From a virus, in the IMG/VR virus record IMGVR_UViG_3300037156_000020, positions 1 to 24,842 of that record: a DNA stretch of 24,842 bases; one strand, written 5' to 3'. This document shows, in pieces, positions 11,996 through 17,314 of the stretch. The notes beneath the pieces were generated by a model. The model was not told the DNA's origin and searched no databases. It worked only from the letters and a program-made list of their open reading frames with translations. A program made the translations under genes and the position numbers. The stretch's first letter is position 1. Every line of letters begins with the position of its first letter.

Positions 11996-12151
11996 TCAAT
12001 GCTTTCTTTCTATGGAAGAACAGGATCTGGAAAGCTGTAGTTGTATTGCAAGAAGTATAGAAGCCGCGGCCGCCTTATTAGCAGCAATTAGTTGTTCTCT
12101 CTTTCTGGATGTTTTAAGTTCTTCCAATTTCTTTTTCTCTATGAGACTCAT
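11996..12151 (-). CDS. 51-residue ORF bridging the terminase genes
   Basis: An ATG at 12151-12149, in a different frame from the small terminase, opens 51 codons ending in TGA at 11998-11996, one base before the large-terminase ATG. AGGAAAACTAA gives a good Shine-Dalgarno at proper spacing. The protein (MSLIEKKKLEELKTSRKR, then EQLIAANKAAAASILLAIQL and QLSRSCSSIERKH) is strongly basic and helix-compatible. It overlaps the last 38 bases of the small terminase and fills the gap to the large one exactly, which favours a real translated gene or a coupling ORF. Function unknown; a DNA-binding packaging accessory is only a guess. Confidence 0.55.
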   Translation of the reverse strand: MSLIEKKKLEELKTSRKREQLIAANKAAAASILLAIQLQLSRSCSSIERKH

Positions 12152-12656
12152 TTAGTTTTCCTGCGCTTTCTACTCGTTTTAAGAGTGATGAAGATTGGAT
12201 AGTGAGTAAGTCCTGATCTCCTGCTCTAATTACTTGGTTATGAATATTTTGTGTTACTGCATAGGTTTGTGTAATTATGGTTGGCATTACTAAGTTTACT
12301 ACAGTTTGCTGTGCGGTGATAGATTCTGGTGCAGATTGGCCGCGCCGCTTTGCTGCATTTATTACCTGAATACTCTTCAGTACTTCCATCGGCCGCATCA
12401 TCAGTGGCATGAGATCTTTCAATTTTTCTATGAGTGCATCCTCAATTTCATCATATGAGTTATCTCGTACATTGTGTTTTTGTAGAGATGTGAATCTAAG
12501 TTCTGCAACCTGTGCGGAAAACTCAGGATCAGAGATGAGTTGAGAGATGCGAGAAACTGAGACTCCTAGAGCAGAGGCAACAGTTTCAGGATTTACACCT
12601 GAACCTAAAAGTTGTAATGCCCGCGACTCAGTGGAGGTAGAGGTAGAAGTTGCCAT
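12114..12656 (-). CDS. Terminase small subunit (putative)
   Basis: This 180-residue protein carries a helix-turn-helix at about residues 14-45 (ALQLLGSGVNPETVASALG, VSVSRISQLISD), the type used by small terminases to recognise the packaging site. A helical middle follows (IEDALIEKLKDLMPLMMRP, then MEVLKSIQVINAAKR) that would serve for oligomerisation. It is the first gene of the minus-strand operon and lies immediately upstream of the large terminase, the usual order. AGAAGCATTAAT precedes the ATG. A plain transcription regulator is the alternative, but the context makes terminase much more likely. Confidence 0.75.
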   Translation of the reverse strand: MATSTSTSTESRALQLLGSGVNPETVASALGVSVSRISQLISDPEFSAQVAELRFTSLQKHNVRDNSYDEIEDALIEKLKDLMPLMMRPMEVLKSIQVINAAKRRGQSAPESITAQQTVVNLVMPTIITQTYAVTQNIHNQVIRAGDQDLLTIQSSSLLKRVESAGKLNESHREKEIGRT

Positions 12657-13116: not shown

Positions 13117-13779
13117 ATGTCTAATATCTCATCTACACACTCAATCCAAAATAATGAAGATGGTAAAGCAGCTGCACTATCTGACAATAGGTTAGTGACA
13201 TGCTGGTGGAAGCAGACAGCGGAAATGAAAGCTAAAGGTGAAGTGGCAAGGAAACCAATTGCGGCGTCGATTCCATTGCTATCAACCGCTGAAATCTCAG
13301 CCAATATTCAGATTCTTATGCCGCACATTACTTCTTATCTGGAAAGCGTACAGGATAAGATTGTACGTACCAAAGCCGAAAGTGGGGCAAGTGAGATTCC
13401 AACAGAAGAACTTAACACTTCTGCAATTTGTTCCTATCTTGACATGGAGGGAACTTCCAATCGTTTAACTAAAGAATCAGTATCGGCCTGGTTTATGGAA
13501 AATATCGCTGAACTTCTTACAGTGAGTTTGGCTGATAAACTCGGTGTTTCTGATACCCCCACACCTGAACAAGTTAAACGCCTTGAACAAATGGTTTCAG
13601 TAGTGCGGGATAAAATCGCTACACTGGCAGGAAGCAAAACTACATTCTCAGCAGAACATGCATCTAAACTCTGTAATGTCTTAAAATTGGCCCCTACCGG
13701 AGATGCACTAGCAGCTAAATTCATTACAAGGTTGGAAGGTATACAGAAAAATGACTCTGATTTGTTTGATGCCCTCTGA
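13117..13779 (+). CDS. Early-region protein, relative of the 20377 gene product
   Basis: I place the start at ATG 13117 because it has AAGGA seven bases upstream and the same leader (AAGGAATCTATCATG) as the 80-aa gene at 14332; the frame is open further upstream but would cross the promoter. The 220-residue protein is helical and polar, starts with a Ser/Asn-rich tail, and has no catalytic motif. Its middle (ILMPHITSYLESVQDKI, then LTKESVSAWFMENIAELL and TVSLADKLG) matches in layout the protein encoded at 20377 (LTDGGKGLELLQDCVADVI; ISKELWEAFAKDYVEVMP). I read the two as distant paralogues. Function unknown; a DNA-binding or replication accessory role is only a possibility. Confidence 0.7.
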   Translation: MSNISSTHSIQNNEDGKAAALSDNRLVTCWWKQTAEMKAKGEVARKPIAASIPLLSTAEISANIQILMPHITSYLESVQDKIVRTKAESGASEIPTEELNTSAICSYLDMEGTSNRLTKESVSAWFMENIAELLTVSLADKLGVSDTPTPEQVKRLEQMVSVVRDKIATLAGSKTTFSAEHASKLCNVLKLAPTGDALAAKFITRLEGIQKNDSDLFDAL

Positions 13780-13856: not shown

Positions 13857-13899
13857 TGATCCCTTTCATGAAATGAGATAACAATATTACTGGATAACA
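13857..13899. repeat. Left arm of long inverted repeat
   Basis: Bases 13868-13899 are an exact reverse complement of 14185-14216 (32 bp). The outer block TGATCCCTTT (13857-13866) matches 14226-14235. Further in, TTTTGCCCC (13915-13923) pairs with GGGGCAAAA (14160-14168). Confidence 0.9.
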
Positions 13900-14184
13900 G
13901 ACGCTTGCCCCCGGTTTTGCCCCCCCCTTTTTTTGGGTTACTACTAATCTATCACCTTATATCTACACCTTATCTACTATCTAGTAGTGTATATAGGATA
14001 TTATATTAGGGGTATACTTTAGTTTAAAATATTTTAGTGGGCTTAATATAGACCCATAGAACTTTGATATAGATATAACACCTAAGAACACATAAGAACT
14101 ACTATAAGGTAAGAAGCTATAGACAGAAATAAGATATAGCAGGAAGAGGTCGAAAAAGAGGGGCAAAATCATGGAGGTGTTGCT

Positions 14185-14235
14185 TGTTATCCAGTAATAT
14201 TGTTATCTCATTTCATCGTTTCATAAAAGGGATCA
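14185..14235. repeat. Right arm of long inverted repeat
   Basis: This arm matches the left one across 32 exact bases (14185-14216) and, after an insertion of about nine bases, again across AAAGGGATCA (14226-14235). The midpoint of the whole structure (about 14046) coincides with a TGGG/CCCA stem at 14038-14056, so the symmetry reaches the centre. Confidence 0.9.
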
Positions 14236-14331: not shown

Positions 14332-14574
14332 ATGTCTAAGATGAGTGAACAAAACATTAAAAGTTTAAAAGCACTAGAAGCTGCTTTTACCCCAGAGCCT
14401 ACACTGGAAATAGTATTAAAGAAACTCCACAAATGCTGGGGAACTTATGCCTTTTGTGTGTGGGCGAAAAAACTAGGATATAAGTTTGAATATATCCATA
14501 AAGTAATTTTGGGGGTTGAGCCGCGAAAGTTTCATACATATAACTCAACTTCACATCATATAACAGCTAAATAA
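14332..14574 (+). CDS. Small early protein of unknown function
   Basis: This 80-residue basic protein (MSKMSEQNIKSLKALEAAFT) has a helical N-terminal half with alternating Leu/Lys and a middle rich in Trp, Cys and Tyr (KKLHKCWGTYAFCVWAKKLG). No recognised family. The start is secured by AAAGGAATCTATCATG, the same leader as the gene at 13117, and it follows the long palindrome and the second GAYGCAA palindrome. It is probably an early gene, perhaps with a host-directed role as many such small basic phage proteins have; that is inference from position. Confidence 0.65.
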   Translation: MSKMSEQNIKSLKALEAAFTPEPTLEIVLKKLHKCWGTYAFCVWAKKLGYKFEYIHKVILGVEPRKFHTYNSTSHHITAK

Positions 14575-14734: not shown

Positions 14735-14763
14735 TTGACACATAAAGCTAAATGTGTTACCCT
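14735..14763 (+). promoter_or_regulatory. Weak promoter with internal dyad upstream of alanine-repeat gene
   Basis: TTGACA (14735-14740) is followed after 17 bases by TACCCT, a poor -10. The dyad ACACAT/ATGTGT (14738-14743 and 14752-14757) fills the spacer, a typical place for a repressor site. The following leader to 14830 contains no ORF. Confidence 0.3.
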
Positions 14764-14830: not shown

Positions 14831-15625
14831 GTGGCAATAATTGCATATAAGTTATTAAATCAAGATATGACTTCTCATAAAAATTGCTTCTGGAAATTGG
14901 GGGAAGAAAAAAGAATTATTGGAGTCCCTGGAAGAAAGTTATGTACTAATCAAGTATTGCACTGTTATAAAGATCCAGTTCTTGCAATTATTCTAAATCC
15001 AATACATGCAAATATAAAAAATCCAAGACTGTTTAAAATATCAATTCCTTCAATTGTAGTAACTGACGGATTAAAGTGTGCTTCTAAAGCTCAAACTCTT
15101 CTAGAAGAAATGGAAATTCCAAGTGTTACTATTGAAAATAGGATAGCCTTTGGGATTTTATGCTCCCTAGAAGTTTATAAAAGAGATAAGTTTAAGGCTT
15201 GGGCAGATAATTGGCTATCCTATAAAGATAGAAGTAAGGATGCTGCTAATGCTGCTTATGCTGATGCTAATGCTGCTGCTAATGCTGCTAATGCTGCTGC
15301 TTATGCTGCTGCTTATGCTGCTGCTTATGTTGCTGATGCTGCTACTGATGCTGCTACTGATGCTGCTTATGCTGCTGCTAATGCTGCTACTGCTGCTACT
15401 GCTGCTGCTACTGCTGCTGCTAATGCTGATGCTGCTGCTGATGCTGCTGCTTATGCTGCTGCTGATGCTGCTGCTTATGCTGCTGCTTATGCTACTTATG
15501 CTGCTGCTAATGCTGCTGCTAATGCTGCTAATGCTAATGCTGCTACTGCTTATGCTGCTACTGCTGCTGCTAAAGTCAAAAAGATAAACATAATCAAAAT
15601 TGCAAGACTTGCTATGAGCTACTAG
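14831..15625 (+). CDS. Alanine-repeat protein with DUF7666-like N-terminal domain
   Basis: The start is GTG at 14831 with AAGGAG 12 bases upstream. Residues 1-133 form a globular domain (AYKLLNQDMTS, then RKLCTNQVLHCYKDPVLAI and PRLFKI) resembling the DUF7666 domain of phage proteins, with an LC-n-LHC-Y-DP signature. Residues 137-247 are a low-complexity helical tract of Ala-Ala-X units (X is mainly Asn, Tyr, Asp or Thr), every alanine encoded by GCT. A basic end (KVKKINIIKIARLAMSY) closes it. The next gene has a different head on the same kind of tract. Function unknown; compositional likeness to type I antifreeze helices or to LEA-like repeats is not evidence of homology. Confidence 0.75.
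   Translation: MAIIAYKLLNQDMTSHKNCFWKLGEEKRIIGVPGRKLCTNQVLHCYKDPVLAIILNPIHANIKNPRLFKISIPSIVVTDGLKCASKAQTLLEEMEIPSVTIENRIAFGILCSLEVYKRDKFKAWADNWLSYKDRSKDAANAAYADANAAANAANAAAYAAAYAAAYVADAATDAATDAAYAAANAATAATAAATAAANADAAADAAAYAAADAAAYAAAYATYAAANAAANAANANAATAYAATAAAKVKKINIIKIARLAMSY
15239..15571 (+). repeat. GCT-rich trinucleotide tract (Ala-Ala-X coding)
   Basis: About 111 codons consist almost only of GCT with interspersed AAT, TAT, GAT and ACT. The uniform alanine codon contrasts with GCA use in the preceding domain and points to expansion by slippage or unequal recombination. A second tract is at 15910-16164. Confidence 0.9.
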
Positions 15626-15647: not shown

Positions 15648-15663
15648 GAGAATCTATATCATG
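15648..15663 (+). promoter_or_regulatory. Translation-start cassette GAGAATCTATATCATG
   Basis: The identical 16 bases occur at 16264-16279; a one-mismatch copy is at 23116-23131, and shorter AAGGAATCTATCATG forms start the genes at 13117 and 14332. GAG serves as Shine-Dalgarno. Confidence 0.7.
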
Positions 15664-16236
15664 CCTGAAATCTATACTACGTTAAACAAAATTCGTTCAT
15701 TCTCGCCCTGTAAATCTGGATGGAGTAACTTACTTTCACACCTAAATAAAACAGAAGCAGATGACGAACATGTGAGCTACCTTACAATTCTTGAGTCCAA
15801 TGGAATAGAAGATACAATCTGGTGCATGAGGGCTGAATGGTTTGAGAATAAAGAACTGTGGATGAAGTTTATTAACTCTTGCGTAAAGAGAGTTAATAAC
15901 TACTCTAATGTTGATGCTGCTTATGCTGCTGCTTATGCTGTTGATGCTGCTTATGCTGTTGATGCTGCTTATGCTGCTGCTTATGCTGTTGATGCTGTTG
16001 ATGCTGCTGTTGATGCTGCTGTTGATGCTGCTGATGCTGCTGCTGATGCTGCTGCTAATGCTGCTACTGCTACTGCTTATGCTGCTGCTGCTGCTGCTTA
16101 TGATGCTACTTATGATGCTACTTATGCTGCTGATGCTGATGCTACTTATGTTGCTGATGCTGCTAGGCTAAAAGAGCGTGAATTACAGGCTCAAGCCCTA
16201 AAAACACTTTTAATTATGGAAACTGGTAATACCTAA
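15661..16236 (+). CDS. Second alanine-repeat protein with conserved CKSGW head domain
   Basis: This 191-residue protein has a compact head (residues about 8-66: LNKIRSFSPCKSGWSNLLSH, then LNKTEADDEHVSYLTILESN and GIEDTIWCMRAEW). I recognise it as a recurrent domain in phage and bacterial proteins, usually followed by an Ala-rich repeat. The tract spans residues 84-168 (AAY, AVD and ADA units, alanines as GCT), and a charged helix (RLKERELQAQALKTLL) ends it. The gene begins 36 bases after its twin and uses the 16-base start cassette. Function unknown. The shared tract with different heads suggests a scaffold-like helix presenting two domains, or recombination-driven shuffling. Confidence 0.75.
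   Translation: MPEIYTTLNKIRSFSPCKSGWSNLLSHLNKTEADDEHVSYLTILESNGIEDTIWCMRAEWFENKELWMKFINSCVKRVNNYSNVDAAYAAAYAVDAAYAVDAAYAAAYAVDAVDAAVDAAVDAADAAADAAANAATATAYAAAAAAYDATYDATYAADADATYVADAARLKERELQAQALKTLLIMETGNT
15910..16164 (+). repeat. Second GCT-rich trinucleotide tract
   Basis: About 85 codons of GCT with GAT, TAT, GTT and ACT, in the same direction and frame as the tract at 15239-15571. The two are therefore long direct repeats that could recombine and delete or exchange the intervening head domain. Confidence 0.9.
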
Positions 16237-16276: not shown

Positions 16277-17314
16277 ATGGCTACAATCTTATGTGCATAC
16301 TCTGGGTTAGAGTTTAAGGTAGAGCATTTCCCCTTAACTCTCTCATCCAGAGAGATGGCTCACCCAATATTCTATATACCACAAAAGAAACTATTAGGAT
16401 TTACTTCAAAGTGGGCAGCGGGAGAACTTACAGAAACTGATTCATATCTTCTGTTTCTTGCCCTCTTGCATTCTACTGATAAAGTAGAATTTAGAGTTCC
16501 AGCATTCAGAACTACATTCACTTCGTCCATAGTTGCAAACAACATGGAAAGACTCTTATCTACAGTTGGAAGAATCAATTGTATTAAGCACCCAGGATTT
16601 AATCTTCCCCAATTTGTAATTTCTCCAGATACTAAGGACTTAGCAAATATATCTAACTGGATTCATGCTTGGGAGGAGTGCATACAAGATTTTCATGATG
16701 GGTACAGAACCTATAACATAGAACGCGCTTTAATCAACCGGGAAACGGCCTTAGAGAAACTGATTAAGAATCCATCTAAATCCATTGCATCCTATGCTAA
16801 CATTCTAGCAGACTGGGCGGAAGTTGCCGGAAACTTTCCTACATTTCTTACAACTCTTGAAACTGGAGAATCAATACCATTCAATCGTTATTGGAAATCA
16901 ATCATAGTTAAGTGTGTAAAAGATGAAGCTATATTTGCAATACCTCGTGCGGATTTAGATGAGTTAATAGAATACTGTGAGACAGAAATAACTCACGGTT
17001 CAATATTCTCTCATTCTCTCATGAGTCTTTTAAAATCTGGCCTAAAGAAACAGATTAACTATTTAGGTTTAGGGGATATAACTCTTTCAGATTCACCATA
17101 TAAGATAGTAAATAGCGATTCTGATGTAGAAGCGGCGAATCTTCTTATTATGATTGAATCCGCACCAGATACCTTTCCAGTTCTATCTGGTTATCCATCT
17201 AAACTTGCATACTTGCGAGCTAAGATGAAGTGGGAGATGAGAATAGAATACCAGAAAGCTCAGGAGCAGAAAAATTCAGAAATTAAAGGAGACTCTGATG
17301 GCCCAGATTTGTGA
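16277..17314 (+). CDS. Conserved phage protein of unknown function upstream of helicase
   Basis: This 345-residue soluble protein has no signal or membrane segment. The N-terminal section (ILCAYSGLEFKVEHFPLTLS, then AHPIFYIPQKKLLGF and GELTETDSYLLFLALLHSTD) is a pattern I associate with phage proteins encoded beside RecD-like helicases. The rest is mostly helical, with a segment rich in Trp and Asp (SNWIHAWEECIQDFHDGY) and a charged C-terminal helix (LAYLRAKMKWEMRIEYQKAQ). It starts with the shared 16-base cassette and overlaps the next gene by 17 bases. The context suggests a replication role, perhaps helicase loader or origin binding; no motif confirms this. Confidence 0.7.
   Translation: MATILCAYSGLEFKVEHFPLTLSSREMAHPIFYIPQKKLLGFTSKWAAGELTETDSYLLFLALLHSTDKVEFRVPAFRTTFTSSIVANNMERLLSTVGRINCIKHPGFNLPQFVISPDTKDLANISNWIHAWEECIQDFHDGYRTYNIERALINRETALEKLIKNPSKSIASYANILADWAEVAGNFPTFLTTLETGESIPFNRYWKSIIVKCVKDEAIFAIPRADLDELIEYCETEITHGSIFSHSLMSLLKSGLKKQINYLGLGDITLSDSPYKIVNSDSDVEAANLLIMIESAPDTFPVLSGYPSKLAYLRAKMKWEMRIEYQKAQEQKNSEIKGDSDGPDL

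Follow-up and report, generated by a model that had tools for sequence, protein, structure and literature searches.

Results

The palindrome and its place among the genes

The window, by which we mean the whole stretch of DNA analysed here, is a 24,842-base virus record that encodes an SU10-type capsid protein and a protein with a remote portal match. Late genes run leftward and early genes rightward from the region of an imperfect palindrome (13857-14235), hereafter the element, which stands at the start of the early block. Directly to its left lies an early gene on the plus strand (13117-13779) that has homologues in 12 of 12 large relatives; the fold of its protein is unassigned, the AlphaFold2 model having no confident PDB match, and a paralogy with the 20377 gene that we had suspected by eye proved unsupported (hhalign probability 4%). 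The first gene to the right (14332-14574, plus strand, 80 aa) gave no Pfam or PHROGs match at thresholds, the only hit being one at E 0.066 to a DUF. Farther right, a conserved early gene upstream of a Dda-like helicase (16277-17314, plus strand; located by alignment and scan) is the right landmark of the interval compared across relatives, and a host search of 84,980 bacterial and archaeal genomes found no relative of its protein. Between these two genes the window also codes for two proteins with long alanine/aspartate/asparagine-rich repeats (AADAAYAA...; 14831-15625 and 15661-16236), and similar repeats occur in the same interval of loci L036 and L043.

Recomputation bears out the arms described in the original prediction: 13868-13899 is the exact reverse complement of 14185-14216 over 32 bp, the outer 10 bp match as TGATCCCTTT in both arms, and the inner pair TTTTGCCCC/GGGGCAAAA is present within an inverted repeat that we label I5. 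Two other inverted repeats, I1 (13868-13931 with 14153-14216, 77% complementary over 64 nt) and I2 (13857-13876 with 14216-14235, 90%), span the arms. The left arm, identified by repeat scan (13857-13899, plus strand), comprises the outer TGATCCCTTT followed by ATGAAATGAGATAACAATATTACTGGATAACA and carries GATAACA twice, 16 bp (2 x 8) apart, at the place where relatives have arrays with a period of about 8 bp. The right arm (14185-14235, minus strand; I1, I2 and repeat D11) is the left one inverted, as are the opposite arrays in relatives, with TTGTTATC at 14184-14191 and 14200-14207, likewise at a 16-bp spacing. The window's own arm is a weak array, with GATAACA present in two copies. Inward of the arms, a C-rich block GCTTGCCCCCGGTTTTGCCCCCCCC (13903-13931, plus strand) adjoins the left array and a G-rich block AAAAAGAGGGGCAAAA (14153-14168, plus strand; recognized from I5 and from the opposite skew in relatives) adjoins the right one.

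The centre between the complementary arms 13857-13899 and 14185-14235 is AT-rich, as first described, and no gene lies in the stretch except an unsupported minus-strand ORF of 63 aa (13981-14172). Its central core TTAGTTTAAAATATTTTAGTGGGCTTAATATAGACCCATAG (14019-14059, plus strand), made up of an AT-rich tract, a G tract and TAATATAGACCCATAG, is conserved, most closely in loci L004 and L005, and is a candidate DNA unwinding element. The longest perfect palindrome that a search found in the element lies inside this core and measures 12 bp (TAAAATATTTTA, 14025-14036), not the 14 bases initially given. A TGGG/CCCA pair (14038-14041 and 14053-14056) does sit at the centre but is absent from most relatives, where the tract may be G5 or C5, and TTATCCA does occur in each arm, but as one palindrome sequence read twice. 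The single strands fold far more stably than shuffles (z -7.8 for the plus strand, -9.1 for the minus strand and -7.3 as DNA), and folding of long flanked segments was uninformative on the choice of strand.

Conservation and layout across relatives

Loci of the same synteny were gathered through the terminase, the 16277 gene and the 13117 gene and reduced to 82 distinct intervals, taken to the right of the 13117 homologue; the complete-looking relatives are 41.5-45.8 kb long, and repeats of 114-127 bases, such as circular assembly leaves, mark the ends of several. The DNA of the region had no match in 50,697 phage records, and the arm had no exact match in viral contigs. Gapped inverted repeats were scored in the first 750 bases of each interval, where 19 corresponds to the 99th percentile of dinucleotide shuffles: 57 of the 82 homologous intervals score 19 or more, a count that is approximate because a few of the scored alignments are not the arms themselves (for example in L036, L201 and L202). 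For control stretches taken downstream in these loci the 95th percentile is 20.5, with one outlier at 52.5. The low scorers L008 and L076 nevertheless carry arrays, and by eye L082, L083 and L069 have none at that place. These comparisons indicate that the palindrome is a real DNA element with a shared location in most members of a large, uncultivated lineage of phages. The MITE-like insertion once considered is excluded, since the element exists as a single copy in the contig and keeps a fixed position in phages that are only distantly alike, cultured Pseudomonas phages included.

In the relatives the arms are tandem repeat arrays, for instance (TTGACTAA)n, (AGACYGNN)n, (TGCCAGAA)n and (ATAATC)n, the opposite arm being the same array inverted. 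At least one arm has a tandem score beyond the 95th percentile of shuffles in 55 of 63 elements, and the period is 8 in 50 of the 58 strongest arrays and 6, 9 or 10 in the others. From clade to clade the repeat sequence differs and the layout is constant. Between the arrays the left half is C-rich and the right half G-rich, with a mean GC skew (64 elements) of -0.22 to -0.42 at 160-60 bp left of the core and the opposite to its right. Cumulative GC skew, proposed earlier as a check, does not settle whether this is an origin, because its turning points among the 12 large relatives are mixed, some close to the element and others distant, and the skew within the element itself is a local one. In relatives G003, G005, G006, G007, G010 and G011 the array motif forms chains at the element only, apart from one stray chain in G010. 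As a separate matter, G004, G009, G012 and others contain many 6-10 bp tandem repeats elsewhere in the genome, unrelated in sequence to the arrays of the element.

Midway between the arrays lies a conserved core, AAATTTTTAA-(G/C)5-TAAAATA, that is, about 20 bp of AT-rich sequence in which AAATTTT is prominent, followed by a run of some five G or C and by TAAAATA. In 40 of 50 elements it lies no more than 16 bp from the midpoint (mean offset 7, s.d. 21.5; mean span 381), statistics that are partly built in, as the script that positions the core favours AT-rich sequence followed by a run of G or C; this bias covers AT-richness and the run only, and the letters around them are free of it. GGGTAT or GGGGTA precedes the G/C tract by 29-32 bp in 13 of 73 elements as against 0.7% of background windows, and anywhere in the 52-bp zone in 18 of 73.

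Helix stability was computed from nearest-neighbour energies, with the first 1.2 kb after the 13117 homologue taken as the element zone. The least stable 100 bp fall within this zone in the window contig and in 11 of 12 large relatives (12 of 13 genomes in all, G011 being the exception). In the window these 100 bp lie in the AT-rich centre of the element; in G004 the minimum falls on the left array and not on the core. When the comparison is restricted, at 60-bp resolution, to non-coding stretches of 120 bp or longer, the element ranks first in most genomes and takes second place in G004 and G007; for G001 and the window a spurious ORF masks the core in this control. AT-rich promoters also melt easily and phage genomes are poor in non-coding stretches, which weighs against reading an origin from these minima. 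In Aeromonas phage P5 and Polaromonas phage Tiera, too, the least stable 100 bp are intergenic and lie in the comparable part of the genome, with no arrays seen by eye. The comparable intergenic region of Tiera (L258, 43391-44172) contains two tandem copies of about 100 bp (GTTCGTTATATCCCCGCGATCCCCCC...ACCGGATACT).

Co-variation of the arms, as a non-coding RNA hairpin or an extruded cruciform would have it, is disfavoured, related arms diverging without compensation, which the original prediction had itself set as a ground for refutation. A comparison of 11 pairs of related elements showed 101 altered arm base pairs. Of these, 82 were altered on one side only (48 broken, 34 a wobble of either strand), 8 were two-sided and complementary, and 11 were two-sided and non-complementary. 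This mostly one-sided pattern is that expected of binding sites on double-stranded DNA. When one arm is compared with the other, wobble-type mismatches number 315 on the plus and 312 on the minus strand, and 1055 of 1682 mismatches are transversions; since selection on an RNA would give an excess of G-U on one strand, the lack of such a bias argues against it. Rfam returned no match at gathering or permissive thresholds, and the arms bear no signature of RNA pairing.

An early promoter and a candidate binding protein

Most relatives have a rightward promoter of the form TTGACA-N17-TAnnnT with which the right array overlaps. Of 73 elements, 54 have TTGACR (TTGACA or TTGACG) within 260 bp on the right side of the core, as against 2 with the leftward equivalent on its left, and, where read, a -10-like hexamer follows 16-18 nt downstream and coincides with, or just precedes, the beginning of the repeats in the right array. 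Promoter scans found no consensus promoter at the matching place in the window; by eye, and missed by those scans, there is a weak candidate rightward promoter, TTGCTT-17 nt-TTATCT (14180-14208, plus strand). Past the first gene to the right of the element, TTGACA-N17-TACCCT (14735-14763) overlaps an interrupted dyad, ACACATaaagctaaATGTGT, and may be the working early promoter of the window. A leftward promoter in the core was considered and dropped (27 found, 26.6 expected). With TTGACR to the right of the core in 54 elements, we noticed no flipped form such as an invertible promoter would have.

A small gene, here called Y (KYRPYFTLxEL...), occurs in 56 of the 82 intervals and adjoins the element in most relatives; HMM searches place it elsewhere in G002, G005 and G009 and do not find it in the window, G004, G008 or G012. 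AlphaFold2 predicts a strand-helix-helix order for its N-terminus, the order of ribbon-helix-helix proteins. The model has no PDB match, a result compatible with such a fold, and Pfam gave no match below E 0.05. Among loci in which both the array and Y could be classed, Y proteins with RPY accompany GAC arrays in 31 of 31 cases, and those with other residues accompany CCA arrays in 10 of 10, plus one unread. This perfect separation of array class by strand residue (31:0, 0:10) is not proof, because the class of array changes once on the tree of the 16277 protein; with a single tree event behind it, and with too few independent pairs from presence and absence, we do not treat Y as a proven binder. 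Y is the leading candidate for a protein that would bind the arrays.

The element in cultured Pseudomonas phages

The element is also found in cultured Pseudomonas phages, among them 119X, PaP2 and PaMx41, with 16 records of 13 phages matching a 390-base stretch that holds the left array and core. In 119X (Fredfastierviridae, Jamesmcgillvirus), at 32% terminase identity, mirror-image CAAGGT/ACCTTG arrays with a spacing of 10-13 bp stand in a comparable place around GAATTTTTTAACCCCCTATCAATATGACC. In this record (L259) the element lies at the ends, 1-390 and 43200-43365, and the record starts a few tens of bases away from the core. Searches of 119X with HMMs of the 13117, 16277 and Y proteins gave no hit, and the flanking proteins of this phage are not detectably related to those of the window. 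We found no earlier description of the element in open papers, a novelty that is provisional since the PaMx41 transcription map lay outside the search.

Discussion

The layout outlined here, with its arrays, a meltable core, one site per genome where this could be scanned and a position at the start of the early block, fits an origin of replication combined with promoter control. Our best explanation, to which we give close to an even chance, is that the element is a phage replication origin joined to control of the early promoter and opened by a phage protein that binds the repeats. The reported episomal persistence of the phage Shea, from the genus of 119X, which carries the element, counts on the same side (PMC13348215). 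An origin had been among the first suggestions for this palindrome, and it gains support because the conserved core falls in the least stable stretch, repeat arrays flank it and there is one site per genome; the argument from DnaA boxes fails, with TTWTNCACA found twice in 23 kb of elements (2.2 expected) and not at all in the element of the window.

We hypothesize cooperative binding of a phage protein to the tandem sites of about 8 bp in both arrays, whose mirror-image arrangement would place protein on both sides of the AT-rich core and may hold the two sides together. The core would then be strained and opened, and replication would start there. Since the right array of most relatives covers the -10 region of the early promoter, the same binding could also switch this promoter, presumably by repressing it, and transcription leaving the promoter would put negative supercoils behind it, into the core. 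The promoter part of this mechanism applies only to a limited extent to the window, which lacks the consensus promoter and is a real exception.

An operator and promoter devoid of origin function would account for much of the same arrangement if a repressor bound to the right array formed a loop with the inverted left one, some 380 bp distant, the AT-rich core merely easing the bend or acting as a UP-type promoter element. The 54:2 orientation bias of the TTGACR -35 sequence, which sits just inside the right array, the overlap of that array with the -10 region and the position at the start of the early gene block all favour such an operator, and the combination of an array over the promoter with a distant second array is present in relatives, the window having the arrays only. 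We nevertheless regard an operator alone as rather unlikely, because it leaves unexplained both the conserved core, with its G/C tract and its coincidence with the stability minimum of the genome, and the retention of the element in the window and 119X, where no consensus promoter accompanies it.

In phage SPP1, pacL, pacC and pacR provide the model of a packaging site in which terminase sites flank the point of cleavage, and the arrays could by the same logic be bound by the small terminase around a central cut. Although the small terminase gene (12114-12656) is nearby, the 119X record begins close to the core and the phage Shea is reported to be terminally redundant (PMC13348215), other related Pseudomonas phage records start elsewhere and the contig ends of relatives are, by eye, scattered. 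The helix-turn-helix segment of the small terminase also appears alike by eye in the window, G012 and G003 despite their different arrays, and a packaging site would leave the early promoter inside it unexplained; we judge it improbable.

Shea, a Jamesmcgillvirus phage like 119X, has been reported to persist as an episome by a mechanism left open in that report (PMC13348215), and a centromere-like site for episomal maintenance could take the form of arrays of 7-8 bp bound by a ribbon-helix-helix protein. Such is the parS of pSM19035, in which contiguous 7-bp repeats overlap promoters and are bound by a ribbon-helix-helix ParB (PMC9499535), and the predicted strand-helix-helix order of Y is in keeping with it. 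We noticed no ParA gene, without a search by family models, Y lacks a PDB fold match and a conserved melting core is foreign to such sites, all of which makes a centromere quite improbable here. A hairpin or cruciform in which arm pairing is what matters is very improbable indeed, for although both single strands fold strongly, wobble mismatches are equal on the two strands, arm changes are one-sided, Rfam has no match and TGGG/CCCA is not conserved.

Returning to an origin joined to early control, we note that reviewed origins place repeat arrays beside an A+T-rich region, that a promoter can assist them through upstream negative supercoiling and that most plasmid iterons are in phase with the DNA helix (PMC5043065). 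Like the lambda origin and those of iteron plasmids, the element has an array of short repeats (the repeats observed, their role as sites putative) next to a low-stability A+T-rich region, one site per replicon and a possible promoter-aided opening by upstream negative supercoiling (PMC5043065). Unlike them, it has an AT core set midway between two mirror-image arrays, repeat units of roughly 8 bp that are not helically phased (period 8 bp, 50 of 58 arrays) and no enrichment of DnaA boxes. With the parS/operator sites of pSM19035, bound by the ribbon-helix-helix protein Omega, it shares contiguous non-palindromic repeats of about 7-8 bp that overlap promoters (PMC9499535), whereas it differs in being bipartite, occurring once per genome and having a conserved AT core at its centre, and in that Y is only a candidate ribbon-helix-helix protein. 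By analogy, its 8-bp spacing resembles the operator and centromere arrays of such proteins (7 bp in pSM19035) more closely than helically phased iterons. The early/late control region of Phi29 is reported to be a DNA hairpin shaped by p4 and p6, phage proteins that reshape a promoter region from several sites (PMC3100819); compared with the region as described there, the element adds long inverted arrays and an easily melted core.

It is conceivable, though we lean against asserting it, that the element represents a class of origin undescribed in the literature searched, in which mirror-image arrays of about 8 bp, a small and changeable phage protein and a fixed melting core doubling as the upstream region of the early promoter would act together, the layout persisting from an uncultivated lineage to Pseudomonas phages and the binding sequence being replaced between clades. 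For this lineage we found no description of where and how replication starts or how early genes are switched, and the element is a candidate for both in a widespread group of phages. As cultured Pseudomonas phages carry it, the idea is directly testable, and the open question of the Shea episome concerns the same genus as 119X, a carrier of the element. The clade-wise replacement of repeats within a constant layout further offers a natural series for a DNA-binding protein and its sites changing together.

Variable genes beside the element

Across the 82 loci, the interval between the 13117 and 16277 homologues is a hot spot, with small variable early genes between the element and the 16277 gene. 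By eye, these include genes for metallopeptidase-like (HELAH) proteins, and the accessory region of L064 (819-1326 of its interval) encodes a pentapeptide-repeat-like protein (ANLREADL...).
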